From a virus: a DNA stretch of 37,662 nucleotides. Under the pieces are notes generated by a model. The model saw only the letters and a list, made by a program, of their open reading frames with translations, did not search any database and was not told where the DNA came from. The translations under genes and the position numbers were made by a program. The stretch covers positions 1 to 37,662 of the IMG/VR virus record IMGVR_UViG_3300044638_003973; one strand, written 5' to 3'. How positions within the stretch are numbered: the stretch's first letter is position 1; every line of letters begins with the position of its first letter. Of the stretch, positions 29,934-37,572 are shown one piece after another.

Positions 29934-30122
29934 ATGGAAAACGCAATCACCCCCGAACAAGTGCGCCAGGCTGCGCTTGATGCGCGGCTTACGCTGGCCG
30001 ATTTTCTGAACGGCGCGGGCGTATCGCGTTCGACGTTCTACACATGGGAGCGCACAAAGCAGCCGCCCAAGCGCCCCCTTACGCTCGCCAAGCTGGCGGA
30101 TGCTGTGCAGGCCGTGGCATGA
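29934..30122 (+). CDS. Small HTH DNA-binding protein (Cro/CI-like)
   Basis: 62 aa. Residues ~8-45 read as a helix-turn-helix: QVRQAALDARLTLADFLNGA, then VSRSTFYTWERTK, the recognition-helix pattern of XRE-type regulators, then LTLAKLADAVQA. First gene of the early + strand block, divergent from the minus operon promoter, so it may control one or both. Ribosome binding site weak (AGG). Its stop overlaps the start of a methyltransferase N-terminal stub (ATGA). Confidence 0.78.
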   Translation: MENAITPEQVRQAALDARLTLADFLNGAGVSRSTFYTWERTKQPPKRPLTLAKLADAVQAVA

Positions 30123-30172
30123 CTAAGCTGCGCGTCCTCGATCTTTTCTCTGAGGAGGCCCGCTATGCCTAG
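30119..30172 (+). pseudogene. N-terminal stub of a C5 methyltransferase
   Basis: A 17-codon frame opening TKLRVLDLFS, nine of eleven residues identical (counting Met) to PKLNVLDLFS that opens the full methyltransferase at 30598. It stops soon after motif I would begin (SEEARYA). It is ATGA-coupled to the HTH gene. The HNH gene starts inside it. At DNA level 11 of 33 bases differ from the intact copy, mostly at wobble positions, so it is an old or foreign remnant rather than a fresh duplication. Confidence 0.72.
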
Positions 30173-30605
30173 TGGTGCCAAGCCCAAGCAGTATGATCCT
30201 GCGCTCGTTGCTGAGGTTGCCCGCTTATACGAAAACGGCCTTACGCAGCAAGAAGTTGCGGCAAGCGTCGGCCTTTCACAAAAGGTCGTTTGGAACATCA
30301 TGCGGCGGCACTTCATCGCTGCCCGCGTTGCAGCGAAGCGCGACCAATCTGGCGAACGCAATGCAAGCTGGAAAGGTGATGAGGCAAGTTACGCAGCCTT
30401 TCACCGCCGCCTTTACGCCTTGCACGGCAAGCCTTCGGAATGTTCGCAATGCGGCACGACTGAGGCATCGCATTACGACTACGCAAGCCTGTCCGGTCAA
30501 TATCATGACCTGTCAGACTACGCGCCGATGTGCCGCAGTTGCCACGCAAAATACGACGACAAGGTTTTGAACATCGCTCACATGAGGGATGCGGCAAATG
30601 CCTAA
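30165..30605 (+). CDS. HNH homing-type endonuclease
   Basis: 146 aa, ATG 30165 with GAGGAGG six bases upstream. The N-terminal half is a resolvase-like HTH (VAEVARLYENGLTQQEVAA, SVGLSQKVVWNIMRRH). The C-terminal half is an HNH nuclease with a treble-clef zinc site: ECSQCGTT, HYDYASLSG and MCRSCHAKYDDK. It cuts DNA near its own integration site in related phages and so spreads. It lies between the stub and the intact copy of the same methyltransferase N-terminus and overlaps the downstream methyltransferase start by 8 bases. Confidence 0.88.
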   Translation: MPSGAKPKQYDPALVAEVARLYENGLTQQEVAASVGLSQKVVWNIMRRHFIAARVAAKRDQSGERNASWKGDEASYAAFHRRLYALHGKPSECSQCGTTEASHYDYASLSGQYHDLSDYAPMCRSCHAKYDDKVLNIAHMRDAANA

Positions 30606-31722
30606 ACTCAACGTGCTCGATTTGTTTTCGGGAATAGGTGGCTTCTCCTTGGGTTTGGAGCGCGCCACCCTTGAAGGGGCTTACATTGATGGCTTTACCA
30701 CGACAGCCTGCTGTGAAATCGAAGCGTTCCCGCGCAAAGTCCTCGCCAAGCACTGGCCCGATGTCCCCTGCTACGATGATGTCCGCACCCTTACCGCAGA
30801 GCGACTTGCTGCCGATGGAATTGCCGTCGATGTCATCTGCGGCGGGTTCCCCTGTCAGGACATCAGCTTCGCCGGAAAGGGCGCTGGCCTCGCAGGCGAA
30901 CGCAGCGGTTTGTTCTATGAGGTCGCCCGTCTTGTTGGCGAACTGGCACCCCGATTTGTTATCCTGGAGAACGTCGGCGCGCTGCTTTCTAGAGGGCTGG
31001 ATGCCGTTCTCGGAACCTTGGCCTCGCTCGGGTATGATGCGGAATGGCATTGCATACCAGCTTCCTACCTTGGCGCACCTCACAGACGCGATAGAGTCTG
31101 GATTATTGCCTACACCACGGGCGCAGGACGGGCCGCGGGGTGCGGGGCCGGAAACCAAAACGGAAACGCTGTTGAGGTGTGCGCAATCGGGTTGGGGGCT
31201 AAACCTTGCAGAGGTTGCGCAGCTATCGGTGAGGGGCTTTTGGCCGACGCCAACAGCACACTTCAACACAACGAACACGGGGGATGCATTAACCCGACGG
31301 GCAGCGCAACGGGGAACGCCATCAAATCTGGCGGAAGCTGTGATTTGGCCGACGCCGAACGCCAGCGACAACAGGGACAGAGGCAACCTATCCTCTCCTT
31401 CGGTGCAGCGCAGGGCGCGGATTGGCAAGCAGCTTGGCCTCTCGCAAGTGGTCTCGGAGACATCTGGCGCACTGAACCCGACGTGGGTCGAGTGGCTAAT
31501 GGGGTTCCCGACCGGGCACACCGACTTAAAGGACTCGGAAACGCCGTAGTCCCTCAAATCCCTGAACTGATTGGCCGCGCAATCCTCGCTGCCCTTCAAG
31601 ACAGCCGCACCGCGCGCCCCTCCCGAGCGTGTGCGGCGGGGGAGGCGTTTGATCCCCGCGTCTCCCCCAACCCTTTGCAGAACGTGTCTCATGACGCGCC
31701 CTATACGGGAGATCGCGCGTGA
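30598..31722 (+). CDS. DNA cytosine-5 methyltransferase
   Basis: 374 aa from ATG 30598 (GAGGG nine bases upstream; ATG 30589 is possible). It methylates cytosine C5 using S-adenosylmethionine. Motif I DLFSGIGGF is at 8-16, motif IV GGFPCQDIS with the catalytic Cys86, motif VI ENV at 124-126, motif VIII RRDRVWII at about 163-170 and motif X GNAVVPQI from 314. Residues ~175-300 form the target-recognition region, with LLADA/DLADA repeats. Another frame is open for 303 codons across it (30638-31549). The last ~40 residues after motif X are not conserved. It overlaps the resolvase gene (GTGA). No cognate restriction enzyme is seen. Confidence 0.93.
   Translation: MPKLNVLDLFSGIGGFSLGLERATLEGAYIDGFTTTACCEIEAFPRKVLAKHWPDVPCYDDVRTLTAERLAADGIAVDVICGGFPCQDISFAGKGAGLAGERSGLFYEVARLVGELAPRFVILENVGALLSRGLDAVLGTLASLGYDAEWHCIPASYLGAPHRRDRVWIIAYTTGAGRAAGCGAGNQNGNAVEVCAIGLGAKPCRGCAAIGEGLLADANSTLQHNEHGGCINPTGSATGNAIKSGGSCDLADAERQRQQGQRQPILSFGAAQGADWQAAWPLASGLGDIWRTEPDVGRVANGVPDRAHRLKGLGNAVVPQIPELIGRAILAALQDSRTARPSRACAAGEAFDPRVSPNPLQNVSHDAPYTGDRA
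30638..31549 (+). CDS. Overprinted reading frame within the C5 methyltransferase gene
   Basis: 303 codons in the +1 frame relative to the methyltransferase, from GTG 30638 (ATGs at 30815 and 30830 are also possible). The second half is not random: GFWPTPTAHFN and IWPTPNASDN repeats, NLAEV/NLAEAV, and LNPTWVEWLMGFPTGHTDL at the end. From memory, this phrase set recurs in phage proteins annotated beside or as cytosine methyltransferases. The same DNA gives LADA repeats and the region before motif X in the main frame. It may be a real second protein or the shadow of strong amino-acid constraints. No good ribosome binding site. Confidence 0.35.
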   Translation: MASPWVWSAPPLKGLTLMALPRQPAVKSKRSRAKSSPSTGPMSPATMMSAPLPQSDLLPMELPSMSSAAGSPVRTSASPERALASQANAAVCSMRSPVLLANWHPDLLSWRTSARCFLEGWMPFSEPWPRSGMMRNGIAYQLPTLAHLTDAIESGLLPTPRAQDGPRGAGPETKTETLLRCAQSGWGLNLAEVAQLSVRGFWPTPTAHFNTTNTGDALTRRAAQRGTPSNLAEAVIWPTPNASDNRDRGNLSSPSVQRRARIGKQLGLSQVVSETSGALNPTWVEWLMGFPTGHTDLKDSETP

Positions 31723-32135
31723 ACGCGCCCGCATTCCTAGGCCAGTCCCGCGATGGGGCGTTAACCGAGGGCGGCGTTAAGCGCGGCGGCATTATCCTCC
31801 CGTTTCCTCCGAAGGTGCTTTGGCCGAACGGTCGCACCCTTAACCACAAGTTCAAGGCGGCGGCGTTCAAGAAGGCCCGCGAGCAAGCGGCATGGGCTGC
31901 AAAGGCCGCGAACGTGCGCGTCGGCAACAGCCCGATCCCCGTTCACCTGATCGTCAAGCCGAAGGCCAAGGGGCCTGCGCCAGACGCGGACAACTGTGTT
32001 TCGGCCGCAAAGGCGTACTTGGACGGCATCGCCGCAGCCATCGGAATTAACGACCGCCACTTCGCCGCGCCCACGGTGGAGATTGATGGCGAACGCTCTG
32101 GGCAATTCGTGATTTGCATAGGAGAAACGCAATGA
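31719..32135 (+). CDS. RusA-like Holliday junction resolvase
   Basis: 138 aa, GTG 31719 overlapping the methyltransferase stop, GGGAGA upstream. It resolves four-way junctions during recombination-dependent replication and before packaging. The core PDADNCVSAAKAYLDGIAAA followed by INDRHF has the acidic DxDN...DG...D pattern of RusA active sites. The N-terminal PPKVLWPNGRTLNHK matches the usual opening strand. It precedes an Erf annealing gene, a common recombination pairing. Confidence 0.85.
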   Translation: MNAPAFLGQSRDGALTEGGVKRGGIILPFPPKVLWPNGRTLNHKFKAAAFKKAREQAAWAAKAANVRVGNSPIPVHLIVKPKAKGPAPDADNCVSAAKAYLDGIAAAIGINDRHFAAPTVEIDGERSGQFVICIGETQ

Positions 32136-32821
32136 CGACCGCAACTGACAAGCTGGAAACCGCCCTAGCGGTTGCTCTGGCAAAGCTTGAAGGCGCAAAG
32201 AAGAAAAGCGCCAACCCGCACTTTAAGTCGAAGTATGCCGACCTTGGCAGCGTGATTGATGCGATCCGCCCGATTGCCGAACATGGCATCTGGTTTCGCC
32301 AATCGACGCACCCCGACGATAACGGCGTGACGGTGGAGACGTTCTACATCGGCCACGGCGCTTCGATTAGCGCAGGTGTGCTGCATATGCCGGCCGACAA
32401 GCGCAACCCCCAGGGCTTCGGATCTGCGCTGACGTATGCGCGTCGTTATGCGCTGCAAACGGCCTTCGGGCTGGCGAGCGAGGATGATGACGGCAACGCG
32501 GCCAGCAATGGCGAGGTCGCCCGCAAGGCGGCACCTGAGGCCAAGCGCGCACCGGCACACAGCAAGCTTAAAACCGAACTGCGGCAGTTTGTCCATGAGA
32601 TGCACGGCTGCGGCGATGCGGACGAATTGGGCGCATTTCTCAAGACCGCCGAGGCGCTGCGGATCATCCGCGAAACCCGTGAAAAGCTGCCTCACCTTTG
32701 GGACGGCGAGGACTGGCCGGAAGGGCAGGATCGGCCTGGCGAGTTCGTCCCGCTGTGTGACCTGATCGACAAGCGCCAGCGCGAATGTGCGCAGGCAACC
32801 GCACAATATCTGAACGCATAA
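32132..32821 (+). CDS. Erf-family single-strand annealing protein
   Basis: 229 aa. ATG 32132 with GGAGAAACG upstream, overlapping the resolvase stop. It anneals complementary single strands in phage recombination and genome circularisation. The signature FKSKYADLGSVIDAIRPIAE followed by GIWFRQ, and FGSALTYARRYALQTAFGL, is that of Erf proteins. The C-terminal ~90 residues are charged, helical and variable, as usual in the family. In P22, Erf circularises headful-packaged DNA; the closed, permuted assembly here agrees with such a need. Confidence 0.92.
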   Translation: MTTATDKLETALAVALAKLEGAKKKSANPHFKSKYADLGSVIDAIRPIAEHGIWFRQSTHPDDNGVTVETFYIGHGASISAGVLHMPADKRNPQGFGSALTYARRYALQTAFGLASEDDDGNAASNGEVARKAAPEAKRAPAHSKLKTELRQFVHEMHGCGDADELGAFLKTAEALRIIRETREKLPHLWDGEDWPEGQDRPGEFVPLCDLIDKRQRECAQATAQYLNA

Positions 32822-36668: not shown

Positions 36669-36907
36669 TCCGCCCAATCCCCGCCCCCGGCTATCGGCTT
36701 ATCAGCGGCAAGCAAAAGCCACCTGCATCATGGGGCGAACGTCTGTTCACGCAACTGCGCATGGGCTGGTGCGATCCGCTGCCTTGGCCAGTTTCGACAA
36801 CCGTATTCATCCACACCGGAAGCGCCGGCGATGTCGTGGCCGTTCGGAAAACCAGCGAAACCATCACGCGGCAGGAAGGTCGCCAAGCAAATGGGGCTTA
36901 CGAATGA
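36665..36907 (+). CDS. Hypothetical 80-aa protein
   Basis: ATGA-coupled to the preceding gene. Product begins IRPIPAPGYRLISGKQKPPA, then WGERLFTQLRMGWCDPLPWP and a beta-rich TTVFIHTGSAGDVVAVRK. Not recognised. Stop overlaps the methyltransferase start (ATGA), so it belongs to the same translated string. Confidence 0.66.
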   Translation: MIRPIPAPGYRLISGKQKPPASWGERLFTQLRMGWCDPLPWPVSTTVFIHTGSAGDVVAVRKTSETITRQEGRQANGAYE

Positions 36908-37572
36908 GGGTCGAGCAAATTGGGCGTGCAACCCTGTATTGCGGGGATAGCCGAGAGCTGGTTGAAAGCCTTGCTGCTGATGTGATGATCTGCGACCCGC
37001 CCTATGGGATTGGCTTTGAATACCTATCCTATCATGACAGCGAAGAGTCGCTTGAGAGGTTGATTGCCGAACTTATTGCGCCCGCAATTGAGCGCTTAGG
37101 GCGAGCGGTCATTACGCCAGGCAACACTAATCTACACAAATACCCCAAGCCGCTTTGGACGGGCGCTTGGACATGGGACACGACGACCGCGCGCGGCTTC
37201 TGCGGCTGGTCGCAATGGCAACCGATCCTGATATACGGTGAAGACCCAGCCAAGGGCTTCGGTAATCACAACGGCTATATGCGTTCCGATCGCATCCACT
37301 TTAGCGGCGGGCAGGCGGACATTCAGGCAAGCGAAGGCGGCATCCACTCTTGCCCCAAGCCGACCCGCTTCATGCAAAGGTTGGTCGCGCGCTTTTCCAA
37401 TGTTGGCGAGACAATCTTTGACCCGTTTCTGGGCAGCGGGACAACTGGGGTCGCCTGCGTCGGCATGGATCGCAACTTTATCGGTTGCGAGATTGAGCCT
37501 GCCTATTTCGACATAGCCTGCAAGCGCATCGAAGATGCGCAACGTCAGGGCAACCTTTTCGACGCAGCGTGA
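36904..37572 (+). CDS. DNA amino-methyltransferase, second of its class
   Basis: 222 aa, ATG 36904. Beta-class order: DPPY at residues 31-34 (MICDPPYGIGF), AdoMet motif FDPFLGSGTTG at about 172-182. GRATLYCGDSRELVESL is the usual opening. It ends RIEDAQRQGNLFDAA. It shares layout with the enzyme at 227-979, but the middle regions differ, so their target sites probably differ. On the circle only a 61-aa gene separates them. The gene crosses the assembly seam. Confidence 0.93.
   Translation: MRVEQIGRATLYCGDSRELVESLAADVMICDPPYGIGFEYLSYHDSEESLERLIAELIAPAIERLGRAVITPGNTNLHKYPKPLWTGAWTWDTTTARGFCGWSQWQPILIYGEDPAKGFGNHNGYMRSDRIHFSGGQADIQASEGGIHSCPKPTRFMQRLVARFSNVGETIFDPFLGSGTTGVACVGMDRNFIGCEIEPAYFDIACKRIEDAQRQGNLFDAA

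Follow-up and report, generated by a model that had tools for sequence, protein, structure and literature searches.

The multispecific DNA (cytosine-5) methyltransferases (C5 methyltransferases) of the Bacillus phages SPbeta and phi3T carry several tandem recognition modules of ~40 amino acids (aa) on one chain that is read in one frame. M.EcoHK31I (YGGCCR), in 1995 work attributed to Lee, Kam and Shaw, reportedly has a beta polypeptide encoded in another frame that overlaps the alpha gene, and both polypeptides are said to be needed for activity. Motif IX of M.EcoHK31I stands alone on the smaller polypeptide and its recognition domain has been placed, as a prediction, in alpha; the small subunit of M.AquI holds both motif IX and motif X (PMC3404938). 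The locus considered here is a methyltransferase gene in a 37.7 kb virus record, IMG/VR record IMGVR_UViG_3300044638_003973, the whole of which (37,662 nucleotides) was analysed and is called the window. It is interpreted, with a probability of about 0.88, as a naturally split C5 methyltransferase in which an alpha and a beta polypeptide are encoded in overprinted frames and beta, which carries motif IX, performs target recognition.

As in M.EcoHK31I, the alpha polypeptide of the window has motifs I-VIII and X and its beta has motif IX; beta lies in the +1 frame on the same strand, wholly inside alpha, which resembles the overlap that M.EcoHK31I is said to have. The window departs from the M.EcoHK31I type in that three tandem modules of beta, and not a part of alpha, make up its recognition domain. 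M.AquI (CYCGRG) is also split after motif VIII and has the recognition region and motif IX on its second polypeptide, but motif X of the window is in the main frame, on alpha, and not on the second polypeptide. The modules of the window are like the tandem ~40-aa modules of the SPbeta and phi3T enzymes; those are single-frame, whereas the modules of the window belong to an overprinted subunit with putative multispecificity. The kind of split is known, and what is new is that the recognition domain is overprinted too and that the arrangement is spread far beyond two isolated enzymes. A tblastn search of plasmids for M.EcoHK31I returned five records, none so named, and a literature search on overlapping phage methyltransferase genes found no description, most subscription journals being outside the search.

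The main-frame open reading frame (ORF) spans 30589-31722 (377 codons); alpha, beta and their motifs and modules are all on the plus strand. Alpha is more likely to start at ATG 30598 (giving 30598-31722), which has GAGGG 9 nucleotides upstream, than at the alternative ATG 30589, and it is assigned as the catalytic polypeptide by its matches to PF00145 and phrog_363 (1.1e-76) and by the match of its AlphaFold2 (AF2) model to M.HhaI. The first-pass annotation of this DNA had reported a 303-codon +1 ORF at 30638-31549 inside the methyltransferase; this ORF, which has a GTG start, is found exactly there and contains the phrases then singled out, WPTPTA, WPTPNASDN and LNPTWVEWLMGFP. Within it, beta is taken to run from ATG 30815 to 31549 (244 aa; 239 aa from the alternative ATG 30830), an assignment based on stop depletion, fourfold-site conservation, phrog_1008 and Shine-Dalgarno (SD)-like sites. 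The +1 protein fits phrog_1008 (about 3.3e-31 to 7e-31), which is named 'DNA methyltransferase' in PHROGs, and phage annotators had therefore already met the second-frame protein and given it the enzyme's name. Judging from profile matches in 86/86 aligned betas, phrog_1008 is evidently the beta family. It is named like the alpha family phrog_363, and its annotation bears no mark of a subunit that is overprinted and holds motif IX and the recognition domain. The window was also scanned against Rfam and gave no match.

Conservation of both reading frames

The +1 frame was evaluated in 80 viral loci fetched with main-frame peptides alone, of which 76 were usable and were scored from the ENV motif to motif IX. 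Expected stop counts were obtained from synonymous shuffles, which preserve protein and codon use only; all other influences were controlled for with the third frame. Because loci were retrieved as top matches to the proteins of the window, frequencies among them are not population estimates. Across the 76 loci the +1 frame contains six stops against 145.6 expected and is stop-free in 70 loci against 11 expected, while the third frame contains 560 stops against 557.7 expected. The motif IX pattern is present in the +1 frame of 64/76 loci compared with 0.1% of shuffles. A reciprocal test used loci chosen by +1 peptides and beta-synonymous shuffles over the region from PTP to motif IX; here the main frame has no stops against 182.4 expected and the third frame 256 against 244.6. 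Stops are depleted in both tests, and both frames are therefore held open.

Conservation at synonymous sites was measured in 73 loci aligned by their main-frame codons. Fourfold-degenerate sites are identical 1.1-1.2 times as often as expected in codons 1-60, 2-3.45 times as often across most of codons 70-312 and 1.15 times as often by codon 325, and in the same alignment +1 stops drop to zero from main codon 85 and reappear past codon 312. Mismatch at main codon positions 1/2/3 is 0.14/0.11/0.50 in the N-terminal part of alpha and 0.45/0.16/0.10 in the WPTP modules of beta, the latter being what an ordinary single gene in the +1 frame would show. The fastest-changing base in the recognition region is thus the +1 wobble base.

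The first-pass annotation had proposed that the two frames may have been kept together widely, and had left it between two proteins and an annotation artefact. A +1 ORF that codes for nothing, arises from codon bias and the conservation of the methyltransferase and is systematically misannotated would be compatible with the window alone, where 4% of 5000 synonymous shuffles yield a +1 run this long and the run is by itself mildly unusual. A by-product of this kind also exists over the same DNA: an antisense ORF of 473 aa (30313-31734, minus strand) was rejected as a gene because the antisense frames show no stop depletion in 73 relatives (229 against 229 expected, 290 against 268 and 375 against 318.5), and it is therefore a by-product of codon usage. 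For the +1 ORF this explanation is already contradicted by the third-frame control, and the stop depletion, fourfold-site conservation and wobble shift reduce its probability to almost nothing. Two PHROGs without an assigned function match the antisense ORF weakly and may themselves hold spurious ORFs.

The proposed joint maintenance of the frames is borne out by the near absence of stops from either frame across relatives. Both checks suggested with it, for frequent second-frame stops in homologues with an intact methyltransferase and for excess constraint at main-frame synonymous sites, gave results that, together with SD-like sites at internal starts, favour two proteins. By these comparative measures the +1 frame is real and coding, and both frames are shown to be under selection at the level of sequence.

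Candidate start ATGs of beta gather at main codons 58-81. In 44/79 loci (56%) the first of these ATGs has an SD-like tetramer upstream, against 15% of the out-of-frame ATGs used as controls (P 1.4e-14), and beta would be produced in vivo by internal initiation. A programmed ribosomal frameshift could instead fuse the N-terminal part of alpha to the C-terminal part of beta, so that a single chain is made and beta does not exist as a protein of its own. In M.AquI-like relatives, whose alpha stops soon after motif VIII and whose beta has motifs IX and X, the fused chain would be a complete enzyme. In the class of the window, however, a fused chain would be without motif X, which stays in the main frame; in addition, the +1 constraint starts about 100 codons ahead of motif VIII, where a shift after motif VIII would not need it, and the SD-like sites at internal ATGs exceed the control by a wide margin. 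Frameshifting is considered improbable for these reasons.

Motifs, recognition modules and predicted structure

Alpha carries motif I (LDLFSGIGG, 30616-30642, from the sequence and the PF00145 alignment), motif IV with the catalytic Cys (GGFPCQDIS, 30841-30867, from the sequence and invariant columns of alignment A2) and motif VIII (RRDRVWII, 31084-31107, from the sequence and alignment A2). Motifs I, IV (PCQ), VI (ENV) and VIII of a C5 cytosine DNA methyltransferase accordingly stand on one catalytic chain, which also has motif X (LGNAVVPQIPELIG, 31534-31575, from alignment A2, aligned to M.HhaI 293-318). Motif IX is present between the recognition domain and motif X, though on beta in the +1 frame (LNPTWVEWLMGFPTGHT, 31472-31522). 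The phrase LNPTWVEWLMGFP is C5-methyltransferase motif IX, carried by the second frame and absent from the main frame. Its W-V-E-W-L-M-G residues are invariant in 86 betas, within the invariant beta core LNPxWVEWLMGFP.

The identity of this motif was established with a relative, L212, in which the catalytic part and the motif IX stretch share one frame. PF00145 matches L212 along nearly the whole model (profile 2-319 of 324), and the stretch aligns to M.HhaI (KLHPRECARVMGYPDSY / KLHPRECARVMGYPDSYK), as a weak second segment, directly before motif X; the beta stretch is therefore identified as motif IX. In the window, PF00145 covers only residues 8-177 of the main frame (profile 2-163 of 324, 3e-40), from motif I to motif VIII. 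The earlier claim that the main frame keeps all motifs through X thus stands for motif X (LGNAVVPQ) and fails for motif IX, which is in the +1 frame. The first-pass annotation had overlooked that the second frame contains the recognition domain and motif IX of the same enzyme, which points to one split enzyme rather than a methyltransferase plus an unrelated protein.

Upstream of motif IX, each of 182 betas surveyed has one to five WPTP modules with a median length of 39 aa. The window has three in tandem: module 1 (LPTPRAQDGPRG...NLAEV..., 45 aa, 31106-31240) and module 2 (WPTPTAHFNTTN...NLAEAVI, 35 aa, 31241-31345), both assigned from this survey, and module 3 (WPTPNASDNRDRGNLSSPSVQRRARIGKQLGLSQVV..., 31346-31471), which is an NRDRG module. 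BLAST clustering of all recognition modules chained them into one group, and single types were followed by pattern instead. The NRDRG module, with 18 module entries that include duplicate copies of the window locus, is always last or single; in different betas the HNAKExGYPAE module is first, single or last and the RSCSAM module is first or middle. With types changing position between betas in this way, the WPTP modules behave like target-recognition modules.

Amino acid identity in the modules is 0.83 for beta, 0.48 for the main frame and 0.49 for the third frame, with the register kept in 190/190 aligned pieces. From these identities and the codon-position pattern, the middle of alpha is therefore open but otherwise unconstrained, and the recognition-type constraint is shown, as far as substitution patterns go, to lie in the beta frame. 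Alpha residues 201-312 (31189-31524), which face the beta recognition region, are assigned as open but otherwise weakly constrained filler because their predicted local distance difference test (pLDDT) score is below 50 and their main-frame amino acid identity equals that of the third frame. The AF2 model of alpha is confident for residues 1-180 and 320-340, and its core matches M.HhaI over about 185 columns.

A separate second-frame protein whose function is unrelated to the enzyme, such as a regulator or an anti-restriction protein overlapping by chance, would account for the N-terminal stretch of beta (SSWRTSQ...FSETWPRSGMMRNG), which is unlike any known methyltransferase part; the lack of any match for beta in Pfam or NCBIfam was also counted in its favour. 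Such a protein is nevertheless very improbable, since beta has the motif IX that alpha lacks, motifs IX and X share one chain in single-frame and AquI-like relatives, and the recognition-type modules are placed exactly where C5 enzymes carry them.

Several observations weigh against a split enzyme with an internally started beta. The best beta starts of the window, ATG 30815 and ATG 30830, both have a weak SD, and relatives do not share one fixed position for the start of beta. AF2 of beta alone has low confidence (pLDDT 59.6), and a PDB profile search with beta gave no sequence match, which makes its predicted fold tentative. The poor prediction for beta alone would fit a subunit that needs its partner, without proving so. 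The loci are also related and the counts are not independent events, which is a minor objection given the effect sizes and the clean third-frame control.

In the split enzyme favoured here, one C5 methyltransferase would be made as two polypeptides from one stretch of DNA. Alpha would fold as the catalytic large domain with motifs I-VIII, its C-terminal helix returning with motif X, and its stretch between motifs VIII and X would stay open only to reach motif X. Beta, started internally near 30815, would provide the recognition domain of three tandem WPTP modules together with motif IX. The two parts, both presumably required, would assemble into the active enzyme, in which alpha catalyses and beta recognises; beta probably decides which DNA sequences are methylated. 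The enzyme would probably methylate one to three short sites in the phage DNA, with one specificity per module, and may thereby protect this DNA against host restriction.

Distribution, variants and neighbouring genes

Motif IX in the +1 frame with motif X in the main frame was found in 100/116 unique loci surveyed, mostly viral. A search with the beta profile gave 70 bacterial loci, which their record titles place in ~fifteen phyla, and 63/70 share this arrangement. Beta was present in 11/369 genomes drawn from one class. An AquI-like variant, in which alpha ends after motif VIII and motifs IX and X are both in the +1 frame, is represented by Andrew gp43/gp44, Euratis gp33/gp34, L224 and L253, and a variant with both motifs in the main frame by L212 and L254. 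In L212 (2811-3800), with motif IX in the main frame, the recognition modules are left in a truncated +1 ORF, perhaps as a natural intermediate or through a frameshift mutation. An actinophage variant has WPTP modules in both frames (L008, 2362-3936, and L010, 2278-3663, from Mycobacterium and Gordonia phages): the series of modules begins in the +1 frame, which then meets a stop, and resumes in the main frame together with motifs IX and X, with a CxxC...CxxC insert at the frame change in L010. A frameshift may join the frames in these two loci, or each frame may have separate modules. A tblastn search with the L008/L010 stretch matched 272 actinophage records.

Both overlapping frames are annotated in Paenibacillus phage Bloom (56/57) and Arthrobacter phage Andrew (43/44), and one frame only in the Sulfitobacter phiGT1, S-H1 and Acinetobacter ABMM1 records. 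Mycobacterium phage Peaches (gp77/gp76) is a further annotated relative. One Roseovarius chromosome assembly (OX638333.1, L216-L220) contains the locus at least five times, at spaced positions and with equal match scores; the copies may belong to repeated prophages or come from the assembly.

It seems likely that these loci form a large phage and prophage family, reaching ~fifteen bacterial phyla, in which a whole modular and possibly multispecific recognition domain and motif IX lie in an overprinted internal gene and the catalytic gene opposite is frame-preserving filler. Motifs IX and X would have moved between the frames several times within this family, and annotation would mostly record the catalytic half, inactive alone.

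In the window, the beginning of the methyltransferase gene also occurs about 480 bp ahead of its real start, as a truncated copy (MTKLRVLDLFSEEARYA, then a stop; 30119-30172). This copy is followed by a helix-turn-helix (HTH)-HNH endonuclease gene (30165-30605), after which the methyltransferase restarts as MPKLNVLDLFSGIGG, with 23/33 bases alike. Relatives have one methyltransferase start, and L176 begins MTKLRVLDLFS. From the sequence, the HNH gene looks like an insertion at motif I that came with a second copy of the start. Other genes include an ERF single-strand annealing protein (32114-32821) and, near the end of the record, a second DNA methylase (36730-37572; N6_N4_Mtase, PF01555, 1.2e-21).

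Meaning of the overlap

If the split-enzyme reading is true, alpha and beta would rank with the better supported cases, in phages and bacteria, of two genes overprinted on the same strand: about 240 codons overlap fully, and highly diverged loci from many phyla have retained this. The pair would also have a functional logic, in that the second frame provides the part missing from the enzyme of the first. Such loci would form a natural set for studying how constraint is shared between frames and how a motif passes from one overlapping gene to the other, and they suggest that the location of the M.EcoHK31I recognition domain is worth re-examining. Annotation usually records one of the two frames, and cloning an annotated phage methyltransferase alone would therefore probably give a dead enzyme.
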